A stretch of 64,000 bases of DNA from an uncultured Pseudomonadota bacterium (lineage in GTDB: Bacteria; Pseudomonadota; Gammaproteobacteria; Steroidobacterales; Steroidobacteraceae): NCBI GenBank assembly GCA_946479515.1, contig CAMLGF010000007.1, positions 1-64,000 on the forward strand. Direction: 5' to 3'. Shown here piece after piece: positions 16,135 to 49,656 of the stretch (the first letter of the stretch is position 1; every line of letters starts with the position of its first letter). The position numbers and the translations under genes were made by a program. Under the pieces are notes generated by a model. It made no database searches. It was not told the DNA's origin and saw nothing but the letters and a program-made list of their open reading frames with translations.

Positions 16135-16250
16135 AAAAGGCGCGCGATTGTACAGGTGCCCTCGGCGCGCTGCATGAGGCTAACCCTGCCCACCGTACCC
16201 GCGCGTTGACCTTTTTACCGCGGGGTTTTCCAGGAATCTCGGAGGGCACG

Positions 16251-16883
16251 ATGAACACGAGCGTTGCACGAAGACGTCCGTTGGGAGCATTAGGTCGAAT
16301 GGGGATGGTCGCCGGGCTGCACCTGGCCGCGCTTTACCTGATCGCAACCAGCCTGGGGATCGTTCCGCCGCTGGTCCCCGAATCCAGGCCGTTCGTTCTG
16401 CAGCCGCCGGACGATTCGCCGCCAGAGCCTGCGCCGGAACCCATCGGCCCGGTGCCACGCTACGAGCCCAGGATCGTCTTCGACGAGCCGGTCGCCCCGC
16501 CCGTCGATCCGCCCGACAGCGACCTCGGCATCACCGCCGAGCTGCGCAACGATCCACCCGTCGCGCCGCCCGGCGTGCCGGCACACGAGACGCAGTTGGT
16601 GGGTGTTCGCGTGGACGCCAGGCATCCGCTCACGCAGCCCGTGTACCCGTCCACGGACATCCGCCAAGGCAACGAAGGCACGGCCGAAATCGAGGTGTAC
16701 GTTCTGCCCACCGGGCGCGTGGGCGATGCCCGTATCGTGAAGAGCGCGGGTTCGCCGACGCTGGACCAGTCGGCCCTGGATGAGGCCAGGCGCCGCTGGC
16801 GTTTGCTGCCGGCCACTCGCGACGGCCAACCCTACGCGCAGTGGCACCGGTTGAAGGTGACCTTCAACCTGAAGAATCGCTGA
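16251..16883 (+). CDS. TonB family energy-transducer-like protein
   Basis: A 210-residue TonB-type protein. A single N-terminal membrane segment (about residues 18-36, GMVAGLHLAALYLIATSLGI) is followed by a Pro-rich spacer (PPDDSPPEPAPEPIGP and PVAPPVDPPDSD). The C-terminal TonB domain shows GTAEIEVYVLPTGRVGDARIVKSAG and ARRRWRLLPATRDGQP. It would span the periplasm to drive outer-membrane receptors or act in an unrelated envelope process. The ATG at 16251 has GGAGGG at 16241-16246. No exbB, exbD or receptor gene adjoins it, so it relies on genes elsewhere. Confidence 0.85.
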   Translation: MNTSVARRRPLGALGRMGMVAGLHLAALYLIATSLGIVPPLVPESRPFVLQPPDDSPPEPAPEPIGPVPRYEPRIVFDEPVAPPVDPPDSDLGITAELRNDPPVAPPGVPAHETQLVGVRVDARHPLTQPVYPSTDIRQGNEGTAEIEVYVLPTGRVGDARIVKSAGSPTLDQSALDEARRRWRLLPATRDGQPYAQWHRLKVTFNLKNR

Positions 16884-38935: not shown

Positions 38936-41017
38936 CTACGCGACGGCGGCGTCCGAAGCGTTCTTCTCGTGCGGCAGGGTGACGCGGAAGCGGGTGTACT
39001 CGCCCGGCTTGGTGGCAATGCCCACCCGGCCGCCGGCCTTGTTGACCAGCTCGCGCACCAGGTCCATGCCGATGCCGCGCGCGCCGCCATCGCTCACCGT
39101 GGTGAAACCCGCGCGGAATATCAACGTGGCCAGCTTGCGCGGGTCGACCTTTGCCGCCTCGTCCGCCGACAGCACGCCCTGGCGCACGGCCTCGGCCCGG
39201 ATCTTGTCGTGTTCGAGGCCGCGGCCGTCATCCTGCACGCTGAGCTGATAGCCATCGCCGGCACGCTGGAACTGCACGGCAACCGTGCCGGTTTCGGGCT
39301 TGTCGAGCACCACGCGGTCCGCCGGTGTCTCGATGCCGTGGCGAATCGCATTGTGGATGAGCTGGCCGAGCAGCTTTTCCACCGTGCGCCGGTAAGACGC
39401 GGGCACTTCTTCCAGGCCCACGCAGACCAGCGAGATGCGCTTGTGATACATGTCGGCGAGGAAGGCGGCCATTTCCTCGAGGCTTTCCTGCGACAGATCC
39501 GAGAGCCGCACCGCCTTCTGCGTGGCGGACAACGAGCCGGAGAGGGTGGTCGCGCCGGTGCTCGTGTCGCTGACCGCAAGCCGCGGCTGGCGAATGGTGG
39601 TGCCCGTGGCCGAGCGCTGCGTGGCGTCGATGGGCGGTTGATCCGCGCTGGGGGCCGCGACGCCGTTTTTCTGGCGCCACTCGCGCAGGCGCGTCACCAC
39701 TTCACCCTGTATGGCCAGGTGCGAAAGCAGATCGTCCAGCTTGACGGCCAATGGCAGGAAGTCATTGCCCGACAGCGTCTGTTTGTCGCGCAGCGAATTC
39801 AGCGCGGCTTCGAACTTCTCGGCGCGCTCGTTCACCGACGGCAAGGGCAGGCGCTCGGCGCGCGCATGAATGCCGCGGATCAGCTCGAGGATGAGCACCA
39901 GCTTCTCGCGGAAGGCCTGCGGCTCGCGCGCCGGCAGCTTGAGGATGGCGCGAAGCTGCCCGGCCTTCTCGCGTGCCTCTCCCAGGAACAGGTCGAGCCG
40001 CAGCGCGTCCAGGGGGAACAACTCCTTCAGCACCTCCGTCAGCCGCGGATCGGGCGGATCGATGATCGTGGACAGATCCGGCGGCGCCAACTTCGCGGTG
40101 GCGGCGGCGGCCACGACCATGGGCGTGATGGTCGTGGCGAGCGTACCGGCATCCGACGACGGCGGCCCCTCCACCGAAATGTGCGCCAGCGAGACGGCGC
40201 CGCCGCGCGGCGGCGCGGGCACCGAGTCACTCGTGACGTCCATCGAACCGAGCTCGAACTCGCCCGTGGTCATGGGCGGCAGTGGCGGTGACTCGCCCGG
40301 ATCGACGCTGACGGACATGGCGGGCGGCGGCGCGGCCGCTGTCATCGCCGGCGCCGCATCCATTGTTGCGGGGGCGGCGGCGGACGGCGCGGTGTCGACG
40401 GCCGCGGCCACTGCCGGCGGCAGCTCGGCGGGATTCAGCGCGGGGCGGGTGCCGGTCTCGCCGGCCAGTCGCTTGGCGAAGGTTTCTTCGTTGAGCACCG
40501 GCACTTCGATGGTGTGCGGCACCATGCGCGGCGCCGAGATGCGCTCGATCGACACGATGATGTGGTGCACGCGGCCGTCCACGACCAGCCGCGAGAAGCG
40601 GATGGCGAGGTGATGCGATCCGGAGTGCACCCGCTGCAGGGGATTCTGCGTGGCATCCACCACCGCCGTGGGATCGGCCTTCCACAAGGATTCAAGGTAG
40701 GCCACGGTGTCACGCCGCACGGTCACCGGCACCAGTTCGGCGATCACCTGCACGAAGGCCGTGCCCGCGCCACAGGTGTGGCCCAGCAACTCGGGCGCCG
40801 CCGCGGATGCCTCGCCCATGAGCTTGTGCTCGCGGTCGAGGAACAGCACGCCGGCGTGTGACAGCTCGAGCATCGCGTATGCCTGCGCGCGCGCCACCAC
40901 CAGCTGTTCATCGCGATTGCGCAGGCTGCTGCGCTGGGTGAGGGCGTACAGCGTGACGCCGATCAGGCAGACCAGCGCCGCGGCCAGGGCCACGATGGGA
41001 AAATTCAGGAACTCCAT
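38936..41017 (-). CDS. CheA-like membrane histidine kinase
   Basis: A 693-residue sensor protein. It has an N-terminal membrane helix (about 6-26), then a PAS-like region (about 45-160, HAGVLFLDREHKLMGEASAA). A long Pro/Ala-rich linker (about 195-300) and a helical segment (about 325-440) resembling an Hpt bundle follow, with a candidate phospho-His at 384 (IRGIHARAERLP). The C-terminal HATPase is CheA-like: N box IHNAIRHGIETPADR (551-567), DDGRGL (596-601) and GGARGIGMDLV. GAGGAGG precedes the ATG. It is the last gene of a three-gene operon, 15 bases after the receiver-kinase gene. Confidence 0.8.
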   Translation of the reverse strand: MEFLNFPIVALAAALVCLIGVTLYALTQRSSLRNRDEQLVVARAQAYAMLELSHAGVLFLDREHKLMGEASAAAPELLGHTCGAGTAFVQVIAELVPVTVRRDTVAYLESLWKADPTAVVDATQNPLQRVHSGSHHLAIRFSRLVVDGRVHHIIVSIERISAPRMVPHTIEVPVLNEETFAKRLAGETGTRPALNPAELPPAVAAAVDTAPSAAAPATMDAAPAMTAAAPPPAMSVSVDPGESPPLPPMTTGEFELGSMDVTSDSVPAPPRGGAVSLAHISVEGPPSSDAGTLATTITPMVVAAAATAKLAPPDLSTIIDPPDPRLTEVLKELFPLDALRLDLFLGEAREKAGQLRAILKLPAREPQAFREKLVLILELIRGIHARAERLPLPSVNERAEKFEAALNSLRDKQTLSGNDFLPLAVKLDDLLSHLAIQGEVVTRLREWRQKNGVAAPSADQPPIDATQRSATGTTIRQPRLAVSDTSTGATTLSGSLSATQKAVRLSDLSQESLEEMAAFLADMYHKRISLVCVGLEEVPASYRRTVEKLLGQLIHNAIRHGIETPADRVVLDKPETGTVAVQFQRAGDGYQLSVQDDGRGLEHDKIRAEAVRQGVLSADEAAKVDPRKLATLIFRAGFTTVSDGGARGIGMDLVRELVNKAGGRVGIATKPGEYTRFRVTLPHEKNASDAAVA

Positions 41018-41032
41018 GATGGCGCTGCCTCC

Positions 41033-42790
41033 TCAGCTGCCCGCGCCCACCGACACCAGCGTGGCCGGATCGACGATGCTGTCGCTCATGGACTGGGTCA
41101 TCTGCTCCAGAGCATGCAGCAATTCGTCGCAGGAGGCGATGCGCTGCTCGCGAGACTTGGACATCAGCCGCTCGAGCAGGGGCTGATAGGCGAGATGCTG
41201 CACGGGCAGCTCCGGCACCGGCGCCATCACGTGCTGCTGCAGCACGTCGATCGCGGAGGCGCCGAGATACGGCTTCCGACCCGCGAGCATCTCGTAGAGC
41301 ATCACGCCGAGGCTGTACAGGTCGGTACGCGCGTCCAGCGTCTCACCCTGCGCCTGCTCGGGGCTCATGTAGTAAGGCGAGCCGCGCAGTACGCCGGTGC
41401 GCGTGCTGCCGTCGCCGCCCAGCAGGCTGCGTGCCAGGCCGAAGTCGATGAGCACCACCGAGCCATCGTCGCGCAACATCACATTGGGCGGCTTCAGATC
41501 GCGGTGGATGATTCCGGCATCGTGCACCACCTTGAGCGAGCGGGCGATTTCCTTGACGAACGTGATGGCTTCGTCGGCGGTGAGCGGATTCTGCAGCCGC
41601 GCCTTGAGATCGCCGCAGGGGAAGTACTCCATCGCCAGGTATTCGACGCCTTCGTGAATGCCGTAGTCGTACAGATCGATGATCGATGGATGATCCAGCG
41701 CGGCGATGGCCTCGAATTCGCGCTGGAACATGATGGCGCGTTGCCCGGTGTCCTCCGAGCTGCCGCTGTAGCGCCTCTTGGAGACCTTGAGCGCGACGTT
41801 GTGGCCGATGTCCTCGGAGATGGCCAGGTACACCGCGGCGGCCTCGGATTCGCCGATGCGCTGCAGGATGGTGTACCCGGGAATCTGGTGAGTCTCGGGT
41901 GCGACGGGCCGCGTTTCCGTCGCGACCGGCTTATGGGACCCCTGCGATGCGGACAATCGCTGTGAAGCCGAAACGCCGGGCAACGAGCTCGCCGCCGGGT
42001 CGTCTTGGTTTCCTGCCGGTTCGCTTCGCGTCGGATGCGCCGCCAGGGCCAGGCTGGCCGCCTTCGCCAGGCTGGCGCCGGTGTGAGTGGCAATGTGAGG
42101 CGTGGGAGCCGGGACCGGAGAGATCGCAGCCGTCGGCACCGCGCCCCCCTGAGGAACCGCCGGCGACTGTGCCGCGGACTCGGCCGGTCGGTGCTGCGTG
42201 GCAAGCTGCGCGGCCTGCGCGAGACTGGCGCCGGTGTGGGTGGCGATGTGCGGCGGCAGCGGTGTCTCGGCACTGCGGGAAGGCGCGGGCGCCGGCGGCT
42301 TCGCGTCGGCCGAGGGCCTGGCCTCAGGCCGCTGCTCCGGTTGCGCGGCCGCCTGGGCCGCGCGCCGCGCCCGGTCCTTTTCGATGGCGCGCAACGTGAG
42401 CTTGATGGAGCGCTGCAATCGGGCTGGCGTCAGCAACCGCTTGGGTAGATAGTCCGCGGCGCCGAGGCGCAGCGTGCGCACGGCGGCCAGCTCGCTGCCG
42501 CCATCGGCCAGGGCGATCATTTCCGGAAAGCCGGGCTGGCTGCGCAGCTTGCGGATCCAGTCGAAGCCGTCGGTGGTGACCTCCTCGATGCCCTCGTCGA
42601 AGGCGAGCGACAGCATCACGATGTCGTAGTCGCGCACCGTCATCGCTGTGTGCACGCGGCCGAAAGAGGTCCAGTCCATGACCACGATGGCGTCTTCGGG
42701 CCAGCCGGTGCCGATGGCGTGTTGCAGCCATTGGGCGTACTTGGCGTCGCTCTCGACGATCAGGAATTTCTGCTGGCGCGGCGCTTCCAT
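41033..42790 (-). CDS. Receiver-like domain fused to Ser/Thr protein kinase
   Basis: A 585-residue hybrid. Residues 8-135 form a receiver-like domain (KFLIVESDAKYAQWL, then YDIVMLSLAFDEG and ADYLPKRLLTP); the phosphoacceptor Asp is replaced by Ser61, while the Lys is kept. The linker (140-300) is Pro/Ala-rich and carries a 12-residue sequence twice (180-191, 231-242). The kinase domain (about 303-560) has Lys335 (NVALKVSKRR), HRDLKPPN (429-436), DFG at 449-451 and SPYYMSPEQAQ; its Gly-loop is degenerate (IGESEAAAVY). It lies 2 bases after the TonB-receiver gene. Phosphorylation targets are unknown. Confidence 0.88.
   Translation of the reverse strand: MEAPRQQKFLIVESDAKYAQWLQHAIGTGWPEDAIVVMDWTSFGRVHTAMTVRDYDIVMLSLAFDEGIEEVTTDGFDWIRKLRSQPGFPEMIALADGGSELAAVRTLRLGAADYLPKRLLTPARLQRSIKLTLRAIEKDRARRAAQAAAQPEQRPEARPSADAKPPAPAPSRSAETPLPPHIATHTGASLAQAAQLATQHRPAESAAQSPAVPQGGAVPTAAISPVPAPTPHIATHTGASLAKAASLALAAHPTRSEPAGNQDDPAASSLPGVSASQRLSASQGSHKPVATETRPVAPETHQIPGYTILQRIGESEAAAVYLAISEDIGHNVALKVSKRRYSGSSEDTGQRAIMFQREFEAIAALDHPSIIDLYDYGIHEGVEYLAMEYFPCGDLKARLQNPLTADEAITFVKEIARSLKVVHDAGIIHRDLKPPNVMLRDDGSVVLIDFGLARSLLGGDGSTRTGVLRGSPYYMSPEQAQGETLDARTDLYSLGVMLYEMLAGRKPYLGASAIDVLQQHVMAPVPELPVQHLAYQPLLERLMSKSREQRIASCDELLHALEQMTQSMSDSIVDPATLVSVGAGS
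42065..42100 (-). repeat. second copy of 12-residue linker repeat
   Basis: Encodes PHIATHTGASLA (residues 231-242 of the receiver-kinase). It is identical in protein to the copy at 42218-42253 but differs at several synonymous bases, so the repeat is kept at protein level rather than being a recent DNA duplication. Confidence 0.85.
42218..42253 (-). repeat. first copy of 12-residue linker repeat
   Basis: Encodes PHIATHTGASLA (residues 180-191) in the Pro/Ala-rich linker of the receiver-kinase. It is followed by AQAAQLA, which parallels AKAASLA after the second copy, so the repeat extends as an imperfect unit of about 19 residues. Confidence 0.85.
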
Positions 42791-42792
42791 GA

Positions 42793-45006
42793 CTATTCGT
42801 CCGTGAAGCGGATGCGCACCGCGGCCCGCTGCTCCACGGGCAGGCCGCCGCGGATCACTGGTTCATAGCGCCACTGCGCCACCGCGATCATGGCGGCGTT
42901 GTCGAAGGTGCGCCGCGGGCTCGAGTTGGTGACCACGATGTCGCCGGTGGAGCCATCGGCGCGCACCGTGAACTCGAGCTCGACCCAGCCGGTGCCGCGG
43001 CTCATGCGCGGCAGGATCGGATACTGCGGCGCGACGTATTCCAGGCGCTTCAACGAGTTCGCGCCCACCACCGGGCTGCGTTCCGCCGCCTGCGTGCGCG
43101 CCTCCGCCACCTGCTTCTCGATCGCCCCCAGGTCCGCGGTGTTGAAGCCGATGCCGTGCGCCTCGTCGAGCCAGCGGTCCGCCGAATCGAGCTCGCCGCG
43201 TCCGAGTGCATTGCGTGCCTCGGCCAGCAGCGCGGCGCCCATGCTCTGGCGTGCGCTGGCCACCGCCGGGCTCGCGGCATCGGTGTTGATGAGCGCGAGC
43301 AGGTGCGCCTTCGCGCTGTCGCCCGCCGGTTGCAGCAGGCGGCCACCGGAGAGCGCCGCCGCGAACGATTGCGTGAGCTGGGCCATGCGCTCCGCGCGCG
43401 CGCCGATCAGCGTGTCCTGCAGCGAACGGCGGATGGCGGTCATCTCCTGGCGGGCGGCGCCCGCGCCGTCGGCGTTCGCCAGCCATCGCTCGGTGTCCGC
43501 GGCATTGCCGGTCGTGGCGGCCTGGGCGGCGCGATCCAGCAACTCTCTTTGCAGCGCGCGCGAGGTTTCCAGCACGCCCGGATCATCGGCGCGCAGTTCG
43601 CGCGCGGCCTCGAGGTAGAAGCGGGCGTTGTCACCAGACGGCTCGATCAGCGCGCCGCTGCGCAGGCGGGCATTCGCCAGCCGCAGGTAGGTCGCGGCTC
43701 TCTCCTCCTGCTGGTCGGACGCGGAGTCCCGGTTGCGAACCAGCGAGGCACGCTCCCGTTCCATCTCGATCTGCATCATGAGGAAGGCGCCGCGCGCGGT
43801 CGCCGGCGTGAGCCGTTCGGCCACATCCACCATGTTGCGCGCATCCTCGACGTTGCCGGCGGTGAGTGCACGCTCCGCGGCGCTCAGCAGCCGGTCGGCA
43901 ACCCTCACCAGCCCGGCCTGGGCCAGTGAGTTGCCCGGGTCTAGCTCCAGCGCACCGGTGAACAGCGCCACCGCATTGCTTCCGGCCGGAGACGCGAGCT
44001 CGCCGCGTTGCAGGGCGGATTCCGCGCGCGCCAGCAGGTCGCGCAGGCGTTGCTCATGCGTCAGTGCCGGCGAAGGTGGCGGCGTCTGCGGCGCGTTCTC
44101 GTCGGGCACCTGGACGACACCGCTCGAGGCCGGGCGCAGGTGCGAGGTTTCCTCGGGAGTGAACGCAGAGGGGCGCGGTGCGGGTGGCTCGGCGGCGGGC
44201 GCGGCGAGCACGCTCGCGGGGGCCGGTTGCGCGATCGTGGTCGAAGCTTCCGGCGCGGCGGACGGCGGTGCCGCCTGGGCCAGCCCTGAGATGGATTGCG
44301 CTGGCGGCTGCGCCGTGGCGTCATCCGGCGCGCCGCCCGGACTAGCTACCGGGCCCACGGCCGCCGTGGACCCGGGCGCGGAGTCCGGCCCGCGGGATGA
44401 AAACTCGAACCAGATCGCGCCCGCGGCGACGATGACGACGGCGCCGAGCACGCCCGGCAGAAGCGCGCGCGCTACGCCGGGACTGCGCGCCGGACCGGTC
44501 CTGGCGGCGGACTTGGGCTGCGACTTGTTCTGGGTCTCGAGGCGCGAGAAGTCCGGGCGCACCTGTTCCAGCGTGCGTTCGACGTTCTCCACCTCGTGAC
44601 GCCTGAGCGCCGCGTCCACGAACAGTCGAACGCGCGGCGCGGAAACCGGGCGGTGCAGGAAGCGATACACCACACCAGAAGTGATCTGCGCCGCCACCTT
44701 GGATTGCTCTTCGGCCGTTCCGACCACCACGAGGACGAGATCGGGCCAGGTGGCGCGCAGACGCTCGGCCATTCCGGCCAGATCGCCCTCGATGAACATG
44801 CTGTCGAGCAGCGCTGCCGAGATCCGCCGACTGTTGAGATGCGGCGTCAGCTCGGCTTCCGAGTTGACGATGATGAGATCGTTGGCAGGGTCGACGGTGC
44901 TACGCAGCAGCCCGATGAGCGCGCGGTCCTGCGTAATCGCGGCGATCGCCACCGGCGCCGGGCCGCTGGCGTACATGGGCGATTCGAATTCCGACTGCGG
45001 CAACAT
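42793..45006 (-). CDS. TonB-domain protein with N-terminal receiver-like domain
   Basis: A 737-residue protein with an unusual order. A cytoplasmic receiver-like domain (about 15-140: PVAIAAITQDRALIGLL, AALLDSMFIEGDL with Asp68, VVYRFLHRPVS) is followed by one membrane helix (about 181-201). A Pro/Ala-rich periplasmic stretch and a long helical, TPR-like repeat region (about 300-640) come next. The C-terminal TonB domain reads SRGTGWVELEFTVRADGSTG, then SPRRTFDNAAMIAVAQWRYEP. Starts at 45039 (TTG), 45006 and 44976 (ATG) are all possible; none has a clear ribosome binding site. It leads the three-gene kinase operon. Confidence 0.8.
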   Translation of the reverse strand: MLPQSEFESPMYASGPAPVAIAAITQDRALIGLLRSTVDPANDLIIVNSEAELTPHLNSRRISAALLDSMFIEGDLAGMAERLRATWPDLVLVVVGTAEEQSKVAAQITSGVVYRFLHRPVSAPRVRLFVDAALRRHEVENVERTLEQVRPDFSRLETQNKSQPKSAARTGPARSPGVARALLPGVLGAVVIVAAGAIWFEFSSRGPDSAPGSTAAVGPVASPGGAPDDATAQPPAQSISGLAQAAPPSAAPEASTTIAQPAPASVLAAPAAEPPAPRPSAFTPEETSHLRPASSGVVQVPDENAPQTPPPSPALTHEQRLRDLLARAESALQRGELASPAGSNAVALFTGALELDPGNSLAQAGLVRVADRLLSAAERALTAGNVEDARNMVDVAERLTPATARGAFLMMQIEMERERASLVRNRDSASDQQEERAATYLRLANARLRSGALIEPSGDNARFYLEAARELRADDPGVLETSRALQRELLDRAAQAATTGNAADTERWLANADGAGAARQEMTAIRRSLQDTLIGARAERMAQLTQSFAAALSGGRLLQPAGDSAKAHLLALINTDAASPAVASARQSMGAALLAEARNALGRGELDSADRWLDEAHGIGFNTADLGAIEKQVAEARTQAAERSPVVGANSLKRLEYVAPQYPILPRMSRGTGWVELEFTVRADGSTGDIVVTNSSPRRTFDNAAMIAVAQWRYEPVIRGGLPVEQRAAVRIRFTDE

Positions 45007-45254
45007 GCGGGTGGTGGGCCAACCTGCGAAAAGCAGCAAAAACGCGGGGTGCGGGGCACTTTAACAAGATATGTAAGTTTATCGGGGAAGGCCGCACCAG
45101 GACCTTGCACGCCGGCAATCCGTGAACTGCGTCCCGCGGCGAATGTCCTGTAACGAGACGACATTCACAGTTGGGGTGGCGGTCGATGGCCCGGTTATCA
45201 TCGCCGCCGCCCGAATCCGACTCGCGAATCGAACAAGTGCCGATGGAGCGCCGA

Positions 45255-46190
45255 ATGAGACTAGTTCACACGCTGGCCCTGTGTTTCTGCCTGTCGCTTG
45301 CCCTGGTAGCCGTTCCGGCCCGGGCCGCCGGTCCGAATGGCGCCCAGGAACGTGGTGCCGAGGCTTTTCTGAAGGCCGTGGCCAGCGGCAGCGCGCAGGC
45401 TGTCGCACAGGAAATGCACCCCGATGAGATCGAGAAGCTGCGTTCCCGGCTGCTGGTGCTGCTGCGCGCAGAGGCGGAGCGCGGCGACAATACCTACCGG
45501 GCGAGGCTGTTCGGCCCGGGCCGTTCGCTCGGCGATCTCGAGAGCATGACGGCGGTCCGCTTCTATACCGTGCTCTCCGAGCGGCTGCGCATGCGTGCCC
45601 GCGAGTACCAGCGCTTCGACTGGCTGGCAGCGGTTCCCGACGGCAAGATCGTCTATCTACTCGGCAGGGGCGAGCCTCCCAAGGATCGCGGCGCGGTCAA
45701 GGTGACCGTCACGGTGGCGCTCATGCAGTACGGTGCGCAATGGCGCGCCGTGATTCCGAGCGAAGTCGAGGCGCAGATCGACGACCTGCTCGAGGGTCGT
45801 GCGGCCGCACCCGGTGCCGCACCCCGGGCCGCGGGTCCGACAGCCGCGGCGCCATCCGCGCCACTCGCGCCCGGCATCAGCGAGCTGCTGGCGCGCGCCG
45901 AGGCGGCACTCGCCGCCGGGCACTGCCAGCAGTACTACGACGAGTACATGAGCCCGAATTTCAACCGCGCCACTTCCAGGAGCGCCAGGAAAACGCTGGT
46001 CAATGCCTGCACGAACAGCGAGTCCACGCGCGAGACCATGATCACCACGCTGCGCGTGGTGCAGGAACTGACACCGCGCTACGACATGGGCGGCTCGCGC
46101 GCCATCTACGACGTGAGTGGACAGGGGCTGCCCTATTCTCGCTTCGTGCTGGAGCGCGACAAGGACATGCACTGGTACATTGCCGAGTAG
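45255..46190 (+). CDS. secreted protein of unknown function (311 aa)
   Basis: I do not recognise it. The ATG at 45255 has GGAG 6 bases upstream and gives a good signal peptide (MRLVHTLALCFCLSLALVAV, then PARAAG); an ATG at 45243 is possible. The mature protein has two similar-sized helical domains joined by an Ala/Pro linker (about 195-220). The first contains FLKAVASGSAQAVAQEMHP and the second HCQQYYDEYMSPNFNRATS, with paired Cys (HCQQ, VNACTN). The pattern recalls DUF4019/NTF2-like periplasmic proteins. It is divergent from the TonB-receiver operon across a 248-base gap and may be functionally tied to it. Confidence 0.7.
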   Translation: MRLVHTLALCFCLSLALVAVPARAAGPNGAQERGAEAFLKAVASGSAQAVAQEMHPDEIEKLRSRLLVLLRAEAERGDNTYRARLFGPGRSLGDLESMTAVRFYTVLSERLRMRAREYQRFDWLAAVPDGKIVYLLGRGEPPKDRGAVKVTVTVALMQYGAQWRAVIPSEVEAQIDDLLEGRAAAPGAAPRAAGPTAAAPSAPLAPGISELLARAEAALAAGHCQQYYDEYMSPNFNRATSRSARKTLVNACTNSESTRETMITTLRVVQELTPRYDMGGSRAIYDVSGQGLPYSRFVLERDKDMHWYIAE

Positions 46191-47174: not shown

Positions 47175-47897
47175 TCAGTTTCCCTGCAGGACGAACTGGC
47201 TGCCCTGAAAGGCGAGCCGAGCGCCGGTCGGGGTGATCTCTTCCACGCGCACGCCCTCCGGTAGCGAGTCGCCCTCGCGCAGCTTGCGCATGTTGATGAA
47301 CACGAAGCGCTTCGCCGGGTCGGCATCGTAAACGTGCAAATCCAGGCGCAGATCCGGAAGCTGCGTTCCCCTGGCCAGCATCTCGTCGCGCGATGGCAGA
47401 TCGTTCGCGCGCCTCGCCGCCGCCCTGGCGCCGGCCTGCTCGGGCGTGATCGCCGGCTCGTAGTCTCGCGCGTCGTAGTCCGGCGGCACCGCGGCCTCCC
47501 GGCTCGACAGCAGCGGCTCTTCGGCCAGCGGCGGCGCCGGACTCGGCGCGACCACACCGGGGTCGGGTGTCGGCCCCGGTGCGGGCGCGGCATTCGCGGG
47601 GACGTTCACCTGGAAGGTGACGGTGGCCGGCACGGTCACGGCGTGCTCGGGTCCCTTCGCCGCAGGATCGACGGCCACGGGCGCCGCGGCAGCCGTCGCG
47701 GGCGCATTGCTGCCCGGATCGCGCAGCAGCACCCATGCCAGTACCAGCACGTTGACCGCCGAGAGCACCGCGAGACCCGTGGCCCACCGGGGCCAGCGGC
47801 GCCGCGGCGCCGCGACCTTGACTTCGAACAACGCCGGCGCCGCCTGGCGCTGGCGGTCGGTCTCGGATTTCTTCAGTGCATCGAGTATGAAAGACAT
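47175..47897 (-). CDS. gspB: General secretion pathway protein B-like
   Basis: A 240-residue inner-membrane protein of the GspB family, which works with the ATPase GspA/ExeA to insert the type II secretion secretin through peptidoglycan. The start MSFILDALKKSETDRQRQ (ATG at 47897) is the family hallmark. One membrane helix (about 39-58) and a long Pro/Ala periplasmic linker follow. The C-terminal GspB domain (about 175-240) reads DLRLDLHVYDADPAKRFVFI and ends LAFQGSQFVLQG. It lies 1 base after gspA. No other gsp genes are in the window. Confidence 0.88.
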   Translation of the reverse strand: MSFILDALKKSETDRQRQAAPALFEVKVAAPRRRWPRWATGLAVLSAVNVLVLAWVLLRDPGSNAPATAAAAPVAVDPAAKGPEHAVTVPATVTFQVNVPANAAPAPGPTPDPGVVAPSPAPPLAEEPLLSSREAAVPPDYDARDYEPAITPEQAGARAAARRANDLPSRDEMLARGTQLPDLRLDLHVYDADPAKRFVFINMRKLREGDSLPEGVRVEEITPTGARLAFQGSQFVLQGN

Positions 47898-47898
47898 G

Positions 47899-49548
47899 TC
47901 AGCCGCCATTCGCGCCGGGTCCGGCGCCTCGTCGCGGGAAGGACTCGCTCAGGAACGGAGTGCCGGCGTCATTGAGAGCCGCGTCGAGCGCCACCTGGGT
48001 TTGCACGCCCGCGATGCCGTCCACCGCCAGGCGGTTGCGTCGCTGGAAATCTTCGACCAGGGTGACCAGCGACTGGTCGAAGCGGTCGCTGCCCGGTTCC
48101 TCGACGGGCATGCCGTTCACCCGGCGCAGGCTGTCGCGCAGCCAGCGCACGCGCGCATCGCGCGAGCCCAGGGCCAACGGCTGAGAGGCGCCCGATGCGG
48201 GTTTCCACAGCAGCACGTAGTCCCCGAACCAGGCCCGCGACAGATCGCCGATGCCGATTTCGCGCTGCGCGCCGCCGAGATCCACCAGCGCATGTTCGTC
48301 GTCCAGGCCCGCGAGCACGAGCTGATGCCCCTTGCCCTGCGCATCGATCACATTCAATACGGCCGGGCGATTGAACAGGCGCAGCTGCGCCAGCGAGCCG
48401 CGCTGCGTCAGGCACTCGAGCCCCGAATGCAGCGCCTGACTGCAGGGATCCATGCTGCCGGCCACGTAACGGATTCCCCACAGCGCGAATAGTTTGTTGA
48501 AGGCGTTGTCCGGATCGGTCTCCCCGGAAAACTGCGCCAGCAGCTGCTCCAGCGTCGGCGGCGGCGCAGGATCGGAAGCCGGGATCGCCGCCGCGGATGC
48601 CGGCGGCGGCGCGCCGGCAGCAACGGGCTGTACGCTCGAAGCTTCCCAGATGCGCGGCAGGAACAGCACGGCACTCACGACGGCTACCGCCGCGGCGGTC
48701 GCGCCGAGGGTCCAGGGCAGCCAGCGCGGCGCGACGCCACGGCCGAACACTTCACTGGCGGCGCGGCGCACCACGCCGGCACCCACGGCGTGCCGGTCCT
48801 CGGTGAAGGCGCCGAGCAGCGCGCGGTCGCAGATGATGTTGATCAGCCTGGGAACACCGCCCGAGAGCCGCTGGATTTCGCGCAGGGCGCCATTGCTGAA
48901 AATGTCGCGCGTCGCGCCGGCCACGCGCAGCCGGTGACGCACGTAGGCGCCCGTCTCTTCGCCGGACAGCGGGGCAAGGTGGTATCGGCCGGTGATGCGC
49001 TGGGCGAGTTGCCGCAGCTCGGTGCGGTCAAGCAGCTCGCGCAGCTCCGGCTGGCCGATCAGGATGATCTGCAGCAGCTTCTGGGTCTCGGTCTCCAGAT
49101 TGGTGAGCAGCCGCACCTGTTCGAGAACCTGCGGCGCGAGGTTCTGCGCCTCGTCGACGACCAGCACGATGCGCTTGCCGCCGGCATGGGCGGCCAGCAG
49201 GTGCCGGCTGAGCAGGTCGACGAGATCCTTGATGCTTTCGGGCGACCGGGCGGGCACCGTGATGCCGAGCTCTTCGCAGATCGCCAGCAGGAACTCGGCA
49301 GGCGTCATGCGCGGGTTGAGTATCAGGGCGATTTCCGCATGCCGCGGCGCCTGCGCCAGCAGCGAGCGGACGACCGTGGTCTTGCCCGTACCGACCTCGC
49401 CCGTCAGCTGGATGAATCCGCCCGCCTCGTTGATGCCATACACCAGGTGAGCGAGAGCCTCCGCATGCCGTTCCGAGAGGAACAGGTACCGCGGATCCGG
49501 GGTGATGGCGAACGGCTTTTCGTTGAGGCCGAAGAACGAGGCGTACAT
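47899..49548 (-). CDS. gspA: General secretion pathway ATPase GspA/ExeA-like
   Basis: A 549-residue AAA+ ATPase. The ATG at 49548 gives the family start MYASFFGLNEKPFAITPDPR. The Walker A motif is GEVGTGKTT, Walker B is VLVVDEAQNL, and ARITGRYHLAPLSGEETGAYV is the sensor region. A membrane helix (about 290-312) links to a periplasmic part with a peptidoglycan-binding domain near the C-terminus (SLVTLVEDFQRRNRLAVDG). With GspB it helps the type II secretin cross the cell wall. The gap of 108 bases to dinB holds no clear feature beyond a possible promoter. Confidence 0.92.
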   Translation of the reverse strand: MYASFFGLNEKPFAITPDPRYLFLSERHAEALAHLVYGINEAGGFIQLTGEVGTGKTTVVRSLLAQAPRHAEIALILNPRMTPAEFLLAICEELGITVPARSPESIKDLVDLLSRHLLAAHAGGKRIVLVVDEAQNLAPQVLEQVRLLTNLETETQKLLQIILIGQPELRELLDRTELRQLAQRITGRYHLAPLSGEETGAYVRHRLRVAGATRDIFSNGALREIQRLSGGVPRLINIICDRALLGAFTEDRHAVGAGVVRRAASEVFGRGVAPRWLPWTLGATAAAVAVVSAVLFLPRIWEASSVQPVAAGAPPPASAAAIPASDPAPPPTLEQLLAQFSGETDPDNAFNKLFALWGIRYVAGSMDPCSQALHSGLECLTQRGSLAQLRLFNRPAVLNVIDAQGKGHQLVLAGLDDEHALVDLGGAQREIGIGDLSRAWFGDYVLLWKPASGASQPLALGSRDARVRWLRDSLRRVNGMPVEEPGSDRFDQSLVTLVEDFQRRNRLAVDGIAGVQTQVALDAALNDAGTPFLSESFPRRGAGPGANGG

Positions 49549-49656
49549 GAGGGCAGGCGGATTTACGGGTACCGCCACAATTGAACGGGGCGGCAGTATT
49601 GCACGGGTCATTTTGTCCGGGGAGACGCCGCCGGGGTTCCCGGGCCGCTCGGGGAC

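Follow-up and report, generated by a model that had tools for sequence, protein, structure and literature searches.

A TonB-tailed protein, a pseudo-receiver Ser/Thr kinase and a CheA-like protein in one operon: a His-Asp relay that appears to have lost its phosphate-passing sites

Three tandem genes in the 64,000-nucleotide window (the whole stretch of DNA analysed) encode a TonB-tailed protein, a Ser/Thr kinase and a CheA-like protein. On balance, they appear to specify a membrane signalling complex that arose from a chemotaxis-type His-Asp relay and was stripped of its phosphate-passing sites, in which the dead domains would serve for docking. As far as sequence can tell, the operon cannot relay phosphate by known chemistry; the acceptor sites are gone from genes that are not decaying, since enzyme sites and full length are conserved while the acceptors are lost.

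The operon comprises gene 1 (42793-45006, 737 aa), gene 2 (41033-42790, 585 aa) and gene 3 (38936-41017, 693 aa), all on the minus strand, as are the window features located below unless marked otherwise, with intergenic gaps of 2 and 15 bases. Both the operon and its composition, as given in a preliminary description of this DNA, are thus confirmed: Pfam finds TonB_C (E = 4.5e-16), Pkinase (E = 1.8e-45) and HATPase_c (E = 4.1e-16) in genes 1, 2 and 3, respectively. Besides ORF calling and Pfam, the gene assignments draw on AlphaFold2 and Foldseek (gene 1), homologue alignment (gene 2) and a structure match (gene 3). The length of gene 1 is counted from an ATG; an upstream TTG would lengthen the ORF to 45039, but at least 85% of 120 listed homologues share the MLPQ start. 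Near-full-length homologues are numerous (the best 120 of 351, 371 and 7044 scored for the three proteins), and those listed are ~60-90% identical, including a few that carry the name Steroidobacteraceae. Conservation over the full length, together with a recurring gene order, speaks against chance ORFs or decaying genes. A promoter scan returned 0 promoters (shuffle mean 0.5) and a terminator scan 4 terminators (shuffle mean 3.0).

Gene 1 consists of a pseudo-receiver, a membrane helix, a helical solenoid that would lie on the periplasmic side, and a TonB C-terminal domain. While the receiver-like N-terminus gives no Pfam receiver match, its CheY-like fold is borne out by AlphaFold2 (pLDDT mostly 91-97 across residues 20-140) and by Foldseek matches to the receivers 2jk1 (TMt 0.79) and 3kcn (TMt 0.86). 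The site residues of this fold (residues 20-148; 44563-44949) are Thr25, Gln26, Asp68 and Arg119, so that the Asp is kept and the acidic pair is missing. The TonB receivers of related loci show the same pattern, with the Asp kept in 50/50, D12 in 0/50 and D13 in 1/50. The membrane helix (residues 185-203; 44398-44454), defined from the AlphaFold2 model and relatives, is followed by a long stretch predicted to be disordered and then by a TPR-like solenoid (residues 317-643; 43078-44058), which is seen in the AlphaFold2 model and has TPR matches in relatives. Pfam, AlphaFold2 and Foldseek (6i97, TMt 0.89) agree on the TonB C-terminal domain (residues 654-734; 42805-43047). The helix of gene 1 and a hydrophobic N-terminal helix of gene 3 account for the membrane segments previously described in two of the proteins, and low-confidence stretches in the models of genes 1 and 3 fit the long linkers described with them.

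TonB uses a His in its membrane helix for ExbB/ExbD coupling. The helix of gene 1 contains no His, and the most hydrophobic 19-residue stretch of its relatives contains one in 0/50; because the residue is absent in all 50, ExbB/ExbD probably do not power gene 1 as they do TonB. The window contains another TonB gene (16137-16880, plus strand), ordinary in appearance, which served as a control and has a His in its membrane helix. Neither ExbB nor ExbD was found among the 17 window proteins scanned with Pfam. Of the energy-transducing TonB protein proposed in the preliminary description, the TonB_C domain stands, while energy transduction is doubtful. Gene 1 has the C-terminal fold in common with TonB but adds a large cytoplasmic pseudo-receiver and a solenoid to a helix without His.

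In gene 2, the pseudo-receiver (residues ~8-139; 42374-42769) was located from alignments and a weak Pfam receiver match (E = 1.7e-4; 22.1 bits, cut-off 30.2), and the earlier recognition of receiver folds is judged right. Its site residues are Glu13, Ser14, Ser61 and Lys117, whereby Ser61 occupies the phosphoacceptor position. Among the 120 listed homologues, that position holds Ser in 60, Ala in 50, Gly in 8, Cys in 1 and Asp in 1. The kinase domain (residues 306-558; 41117-41875; Pfam) possesses the catalytic Lys, HRD Asp, Asn and DFG Asp of Hanks-type Ser/Thr kinases (Lys335, Asp431, Asn436 and Asp449), each kept in 120/120 listed homologues. The linker between the two domains (42038-42250) carries two HIATHTGASLA copies, starting at residues 181 and 232; at least one copy of the core pattern is present in 104/120 listed homologues and two copies in 31. 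The best NCBIfam kinase match is to the PknB/Stk1 PASTA kinases (NF033483, E = 1.4e-68, below cut-off), from which gene 2 differs by its N-terminal pseudo-receiver and by giving no Pfam PASTA match.

Gene 3 resembles CheA in its P4-like ATPase (residues 510-684; 38966-39490), identified by Pfam and by matches to PDB 1i5d (E = 8.1e-22) and, with Foldseek, 1i58 (E = 1.5e-14), and in the HPt-like helical bundle upstream of it (residues 324-451; 39665-40048). However, it is membrane-anchored and lacks the HPt His, and Pfam gives no Hpt match, nor any to the dimerization (P3) or CheW-like (P5) domains at E up to 1. The NCBIfam model T2SS_HK matches weakly (E = 0.009). The HPt acceptor position, Arg381, is Arg in 120/120 listed homologues, while the checked ATP-box residues are also kept in 120/120. 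His384 was considered as the HPt His and rejected: it aligns with the Lys of the HxxKGE motif and varies (H62 R30 N26 K2), the true position being R381. A conserved linker motif, TQRSATGTTIRQP (residues 466-478; 39584-39622), lies in a region of low model confidence, and 12 of its 13 positions are at least 98% conserved in the 120 listed homologues; together with HIATHTGASLA of gene 2, it is a candidate phosphorylation or docking site. Nearer the N-terminus, His64, His80, His131, His136 and His152 are identical in 120/120 listed homologues and could form a metal or cofactor site, or merely reflect close kinship. A PAS domain is suggested by a model of moderate confidence and gives no Pfam match.

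These residues bear on the pathway proposed in the preliminary description, a classical phosphorelay in which the CheA-like protein autophosphorylates and feeds both receivers, and the Ser/Thr kinase is the output. The acidic pair, Asp and Lys of a phosphorelay receiver occur together in neither gene 1 nor gene 2, and among the relatives the HPt His is replaced by Arg in 120/120, the Asp of the kinase receiver is lost in 119/120 and an intact acidic pair is absent from the TonB receiver in 50/50. An ATP site intact in all 120 listed homologues, a TonB Asp68 kept in 50/50, a sister system that looks competent beside CheY and CheX, and one locus (L195) that joins an intact HPt kinase to an intact receiver-kinase speak for such a relay, yet with its acceptors missing it comes close to being untenable. 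A modified relay, in which the pseudo-HPt is phosphorylated at an unusual acceptor such as His433, is very unlikely. His433 is kept in 117/120 listed homologues and its column is invariant in 11/11 aligned histidine kinases of both versions of the system, but its presence alongside a normal HPt His suggests a structural role, and the kinase receiver would still be without its Asp.

Related loci (labelled L###) and genomes (G###) were searched with 4, 5, 7 or up to 9 candidate frames scored per genome, depending on the search (5 in the family TonB and class-wide HPt-ATPase searches, 4 in the class receiver-kinase search). With TonB matches counted at E <= 1e-50, gene 1 is matched in 48 of 217 family genomes at 49 places, of which 47 were fetched (G197 and G202 were left out). 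All three genes lie at 6 of these places, the TonB and kinase genes at 22, the TonB gene with a CheA-like kinase and CheX at 1, and the TonB gene alone at 18. The kinase thus adjoins the TonB gene at 28/47 places and all three genes co-occur at 6/47, in keeping with the preliminary description of a joint system. The fetched stretch runs past the kinase at 15 of the 22 two-gene loci and no CheA-like gene follows, while at the other 7 (L082, L083, L087, L088, L094, L096 and L119) it ends at or near the kinase, so that a CheA-like gene next to it could have gone unseen. Since the CheA-like gene is absent after the kinase in 15/22 loci, its product is not essential to the core; gene order and homology identify the TonB and kinase genes as the core, to which the CheA-like gene is an optional addition. 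Within the genus of L001, the TonB gene is matched at E <= 1e-50 in 4/4 genomes, and the three genes are present at all four loci (L001, L002, L080 and L081). A peptide-pattern scan of genome contigs with strict patterns returned two loci, L001 (titled Steroidobacteraceae) and L002, which have the genes in the same order and share flanking genes. Another clade (L170-L172, L174-L182) has the kinase and CheA-like pair, with the TonB gene absent from the stretches fetched; of its genomes, G099, G198, G212 and G213 have such a pair plus a lone TonB gene elsewhere (L037, L117, L107 and L092). The HPt-ATPase family was matched at E <= 1e-55 in 6 of 369 genomes of a class-wide draw.

Further evidence comes from a sister system consisting of an HPt/CheA-like kinase, a CheY-like receiver, the phosphatase CheX and, usually, a TonB protein (a TonB-solenoid protein lies beside the sister kinase at 21/28 loci). 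Its TonB protein is homologous to gene 1 and its kinase to gene 3 (33-40% identity to L039, L052, L053 and L118 across HPt and ATPase), but the sister system keeps the HPt His and the receiver Asp, and the CheY-like receiver and CheX stand in place of the Ser/Thr kinase. The HxxKGE motif is intact in 13/13 sister kinases inspected, and Pfam finds Hpt in the CheX-linked L039, L052, L053 and L195, whereas the window, L081 and L115 give no Hpt match. When window 30001-56000 was searched by BLASTP with the L039 proteins, neither a CheY-like receiver nor CheX was found. The comparison covers 55 distinct histidine kinase loci (duplicates L173 and L199 dropped); 40 loci were picked from a ranked match list and hence not at random. 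His occupies the HPt position at 28/28 CheX-linked loci (24 from the family and 4, L195-L198, from other genomes of the class) versus 1/25 kinase-linked loci (24 assigned by script plus L116, where the kinase immediately upstream scored below the script's cut). The remaining two loci are L186, with Gln and neither neighbour found, and L200, with Asp on a contig that ends before a kinase would be visible.

That the HPt residue tracks the neighbouring genes, His with CheX and lost with the kinase, argues for a relay stripped of its acceptors. Against it stand the kinase-linked L183, whose HPt position holds His but whose motif lacks the Lys and Gly; the loss at L186 without a kinase neighbour; the retention of the TonB Asp68 and of His433; and the 15 of 22 two-gene loci at which the CheA-like gene is absent after the kinase. 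L186 (G149) sits among the CheX-linked kinases on the tree, where it may represent a separate loss of the HPt His. In that tree (55 sequences, root not placed), a branch with support 96/86 sets the 25 kinase-linked sequences and L200 apart as a group. A single conversion with later drift would fit this, and the system was probably converted once. Both versions may go back to one ancestral locus, as the transporter flanking the window operon adjoins the TonB gene in 7 of the 24 family CheX loci (L039, L150-L155).

The receiver-kinase tells a similar story. At L195 (G548, outside the family), an intact HPt kinase, a CheY-like receiver, CheX and a receiver-kinase lie side by side, and this receiver-kinase is the only one of 48 from related loci that has the receiver Asp; that the sole intact example adjoins an intact HPt kinase again favours the stripped relay. 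Receiver-Ser/Thr kinases of other Gammaproteobacteria (for example L195, L244-L253) likewise have an N-terminal receiver and a kinase and a length similar to that of gene 2, with full-length matches to L195 at 33-40% identity. The Asp, lost in gene 2, is kept in 19/23 class receiver-kinases, a count in which the intact query favours intact ones. As the receiver is intact in L195 and in these 19 relatives, the receiver-kinase probably began phosphate-competent. In three other genomes of the class (L244, L245 and L248), a short TonB gene stands ~1-1.4 kb away from an intact receiver-kinase, with opposite orientation.

The persistence of the sister system also raises the question of phosphorylation in trans, whereby the CheA-like ATPase would act on the intact HPt or receiver of the CheX system or of another relay. 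The ATP site is kept, and both versions are present in G001 and G221 and in 9/9 TonB+kinase genomes checked (G093, G112, G124, G149, G155, G188, G225, G227 and G332). However, no full-length match to the sister kinase was found in the three-gene genomes G002, G220, G252 and G254 (completeness not stated), and this explanation seems unlikely, though less so than a relay within the operon.

Several neighbours of the operon are conserved and at present are leads only. A divergent gene (45243-46190, plus strand; start approximate), with a likely signal peptide, is found at 18/28 TonB+kinase places; its product matches no Pfam family above cut-off and could be a fourth part or unrecognised partner. 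Further upstream lie GspB and GspA/ExeA-like genes (47175-49611), whose link to the operon is putative. On one account, the operon serves the assembly or control of type II secretion with GspA/GspB. Although GspB is conserved at 25/28 and ExeA at 24/28 TonB+kinase places, a DNA polymerase IV-type gene, the transporter and other genes nearby are conserved likewise, so that plain synteny may be the reason; a secretion role is compatible with the stripped relay and in itself rather improbable. A further TonB-linked layout occurs at L042 (4847-10569), L045 (10330-13430) and L046 (8463-13798), where the receiver-like domains are on a protein of their own, after which come a TonB-solenoid protein and another TonB protein; at L042, a HisKA/HATPase kinase precedes the receiver-like and TonB genes.

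For the stripped relay, an allosteric mechanism is the simplest, since the Ser/Thr kinase is the sole complete signalling enzyme of the operon. This kinase and the membrane-bound TonB-tailed protein are probably the parts that still work. The dead receivers and the dead HPt would keep their old binding surfaces and act as docking sites. Gene 1 would read the envelope via its solenoid and TonB_C tail, and its pseudo-receiver would bind either that of the kinase or the pseudo-HPt. Gene 3 would act as an ATP-dependent switch or scaffold and the Ser/Thr kinase as the output; the conserved Thr/Ser motif in the gene 3 linker may be one of the kinase's targets. A kinase output and a TonB-tailed envelope sensor, as envisaged from the outset, are plausible. 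A more far-reaching version can be offered only tentatively: the whole relay may have turned into a Ser/Thr-kinase system, in which HPt, both receivers and the CheA-like core form an ATP-gated scaffold, the kinase replaces CheY/CheX, and the TonB-tailed protein, not driven by ExbB/ExbD, feeds in mechanical or envelope status.

No system with this combination was found by title and start of abstract in one open library, and no NCBIfam model matches the operon or sister proteins above cut-off except for the TonB C-terminal domain. The nearest principle appears to be that of DivL of Caulobacter. DivL belongs to a different kinase class than gene 3, and we know of no Ser/Thr kinase or TonB partner for it. 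DivL is described as a repurposed histidine kinase that is kept for binding, not phosphotransfer (PMC4211667, PMC5361649). Compared by this description, not by sequence, the principle is alike: gene 3 is a histidine kinase-type protein without the acceptor His and with a conserved ATPase. The operon thus combines domains and a principle that are both known in a way that is new, and the two versions clearly show a before and an after. It also carries a caution: domain names alone do not make such operons phosphorelays, nor such proteins TonB transporters. The operon offers a concrete case in which to study the roles of receivers and an HPt that are dead and of a CheA-type ATPase that is live. 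If the reading is true, it would provide a natural before-and-after pair, in several cases within a single genome, of the replacement of His-Asp by Ser/Thr signalling with the scaffold kept.
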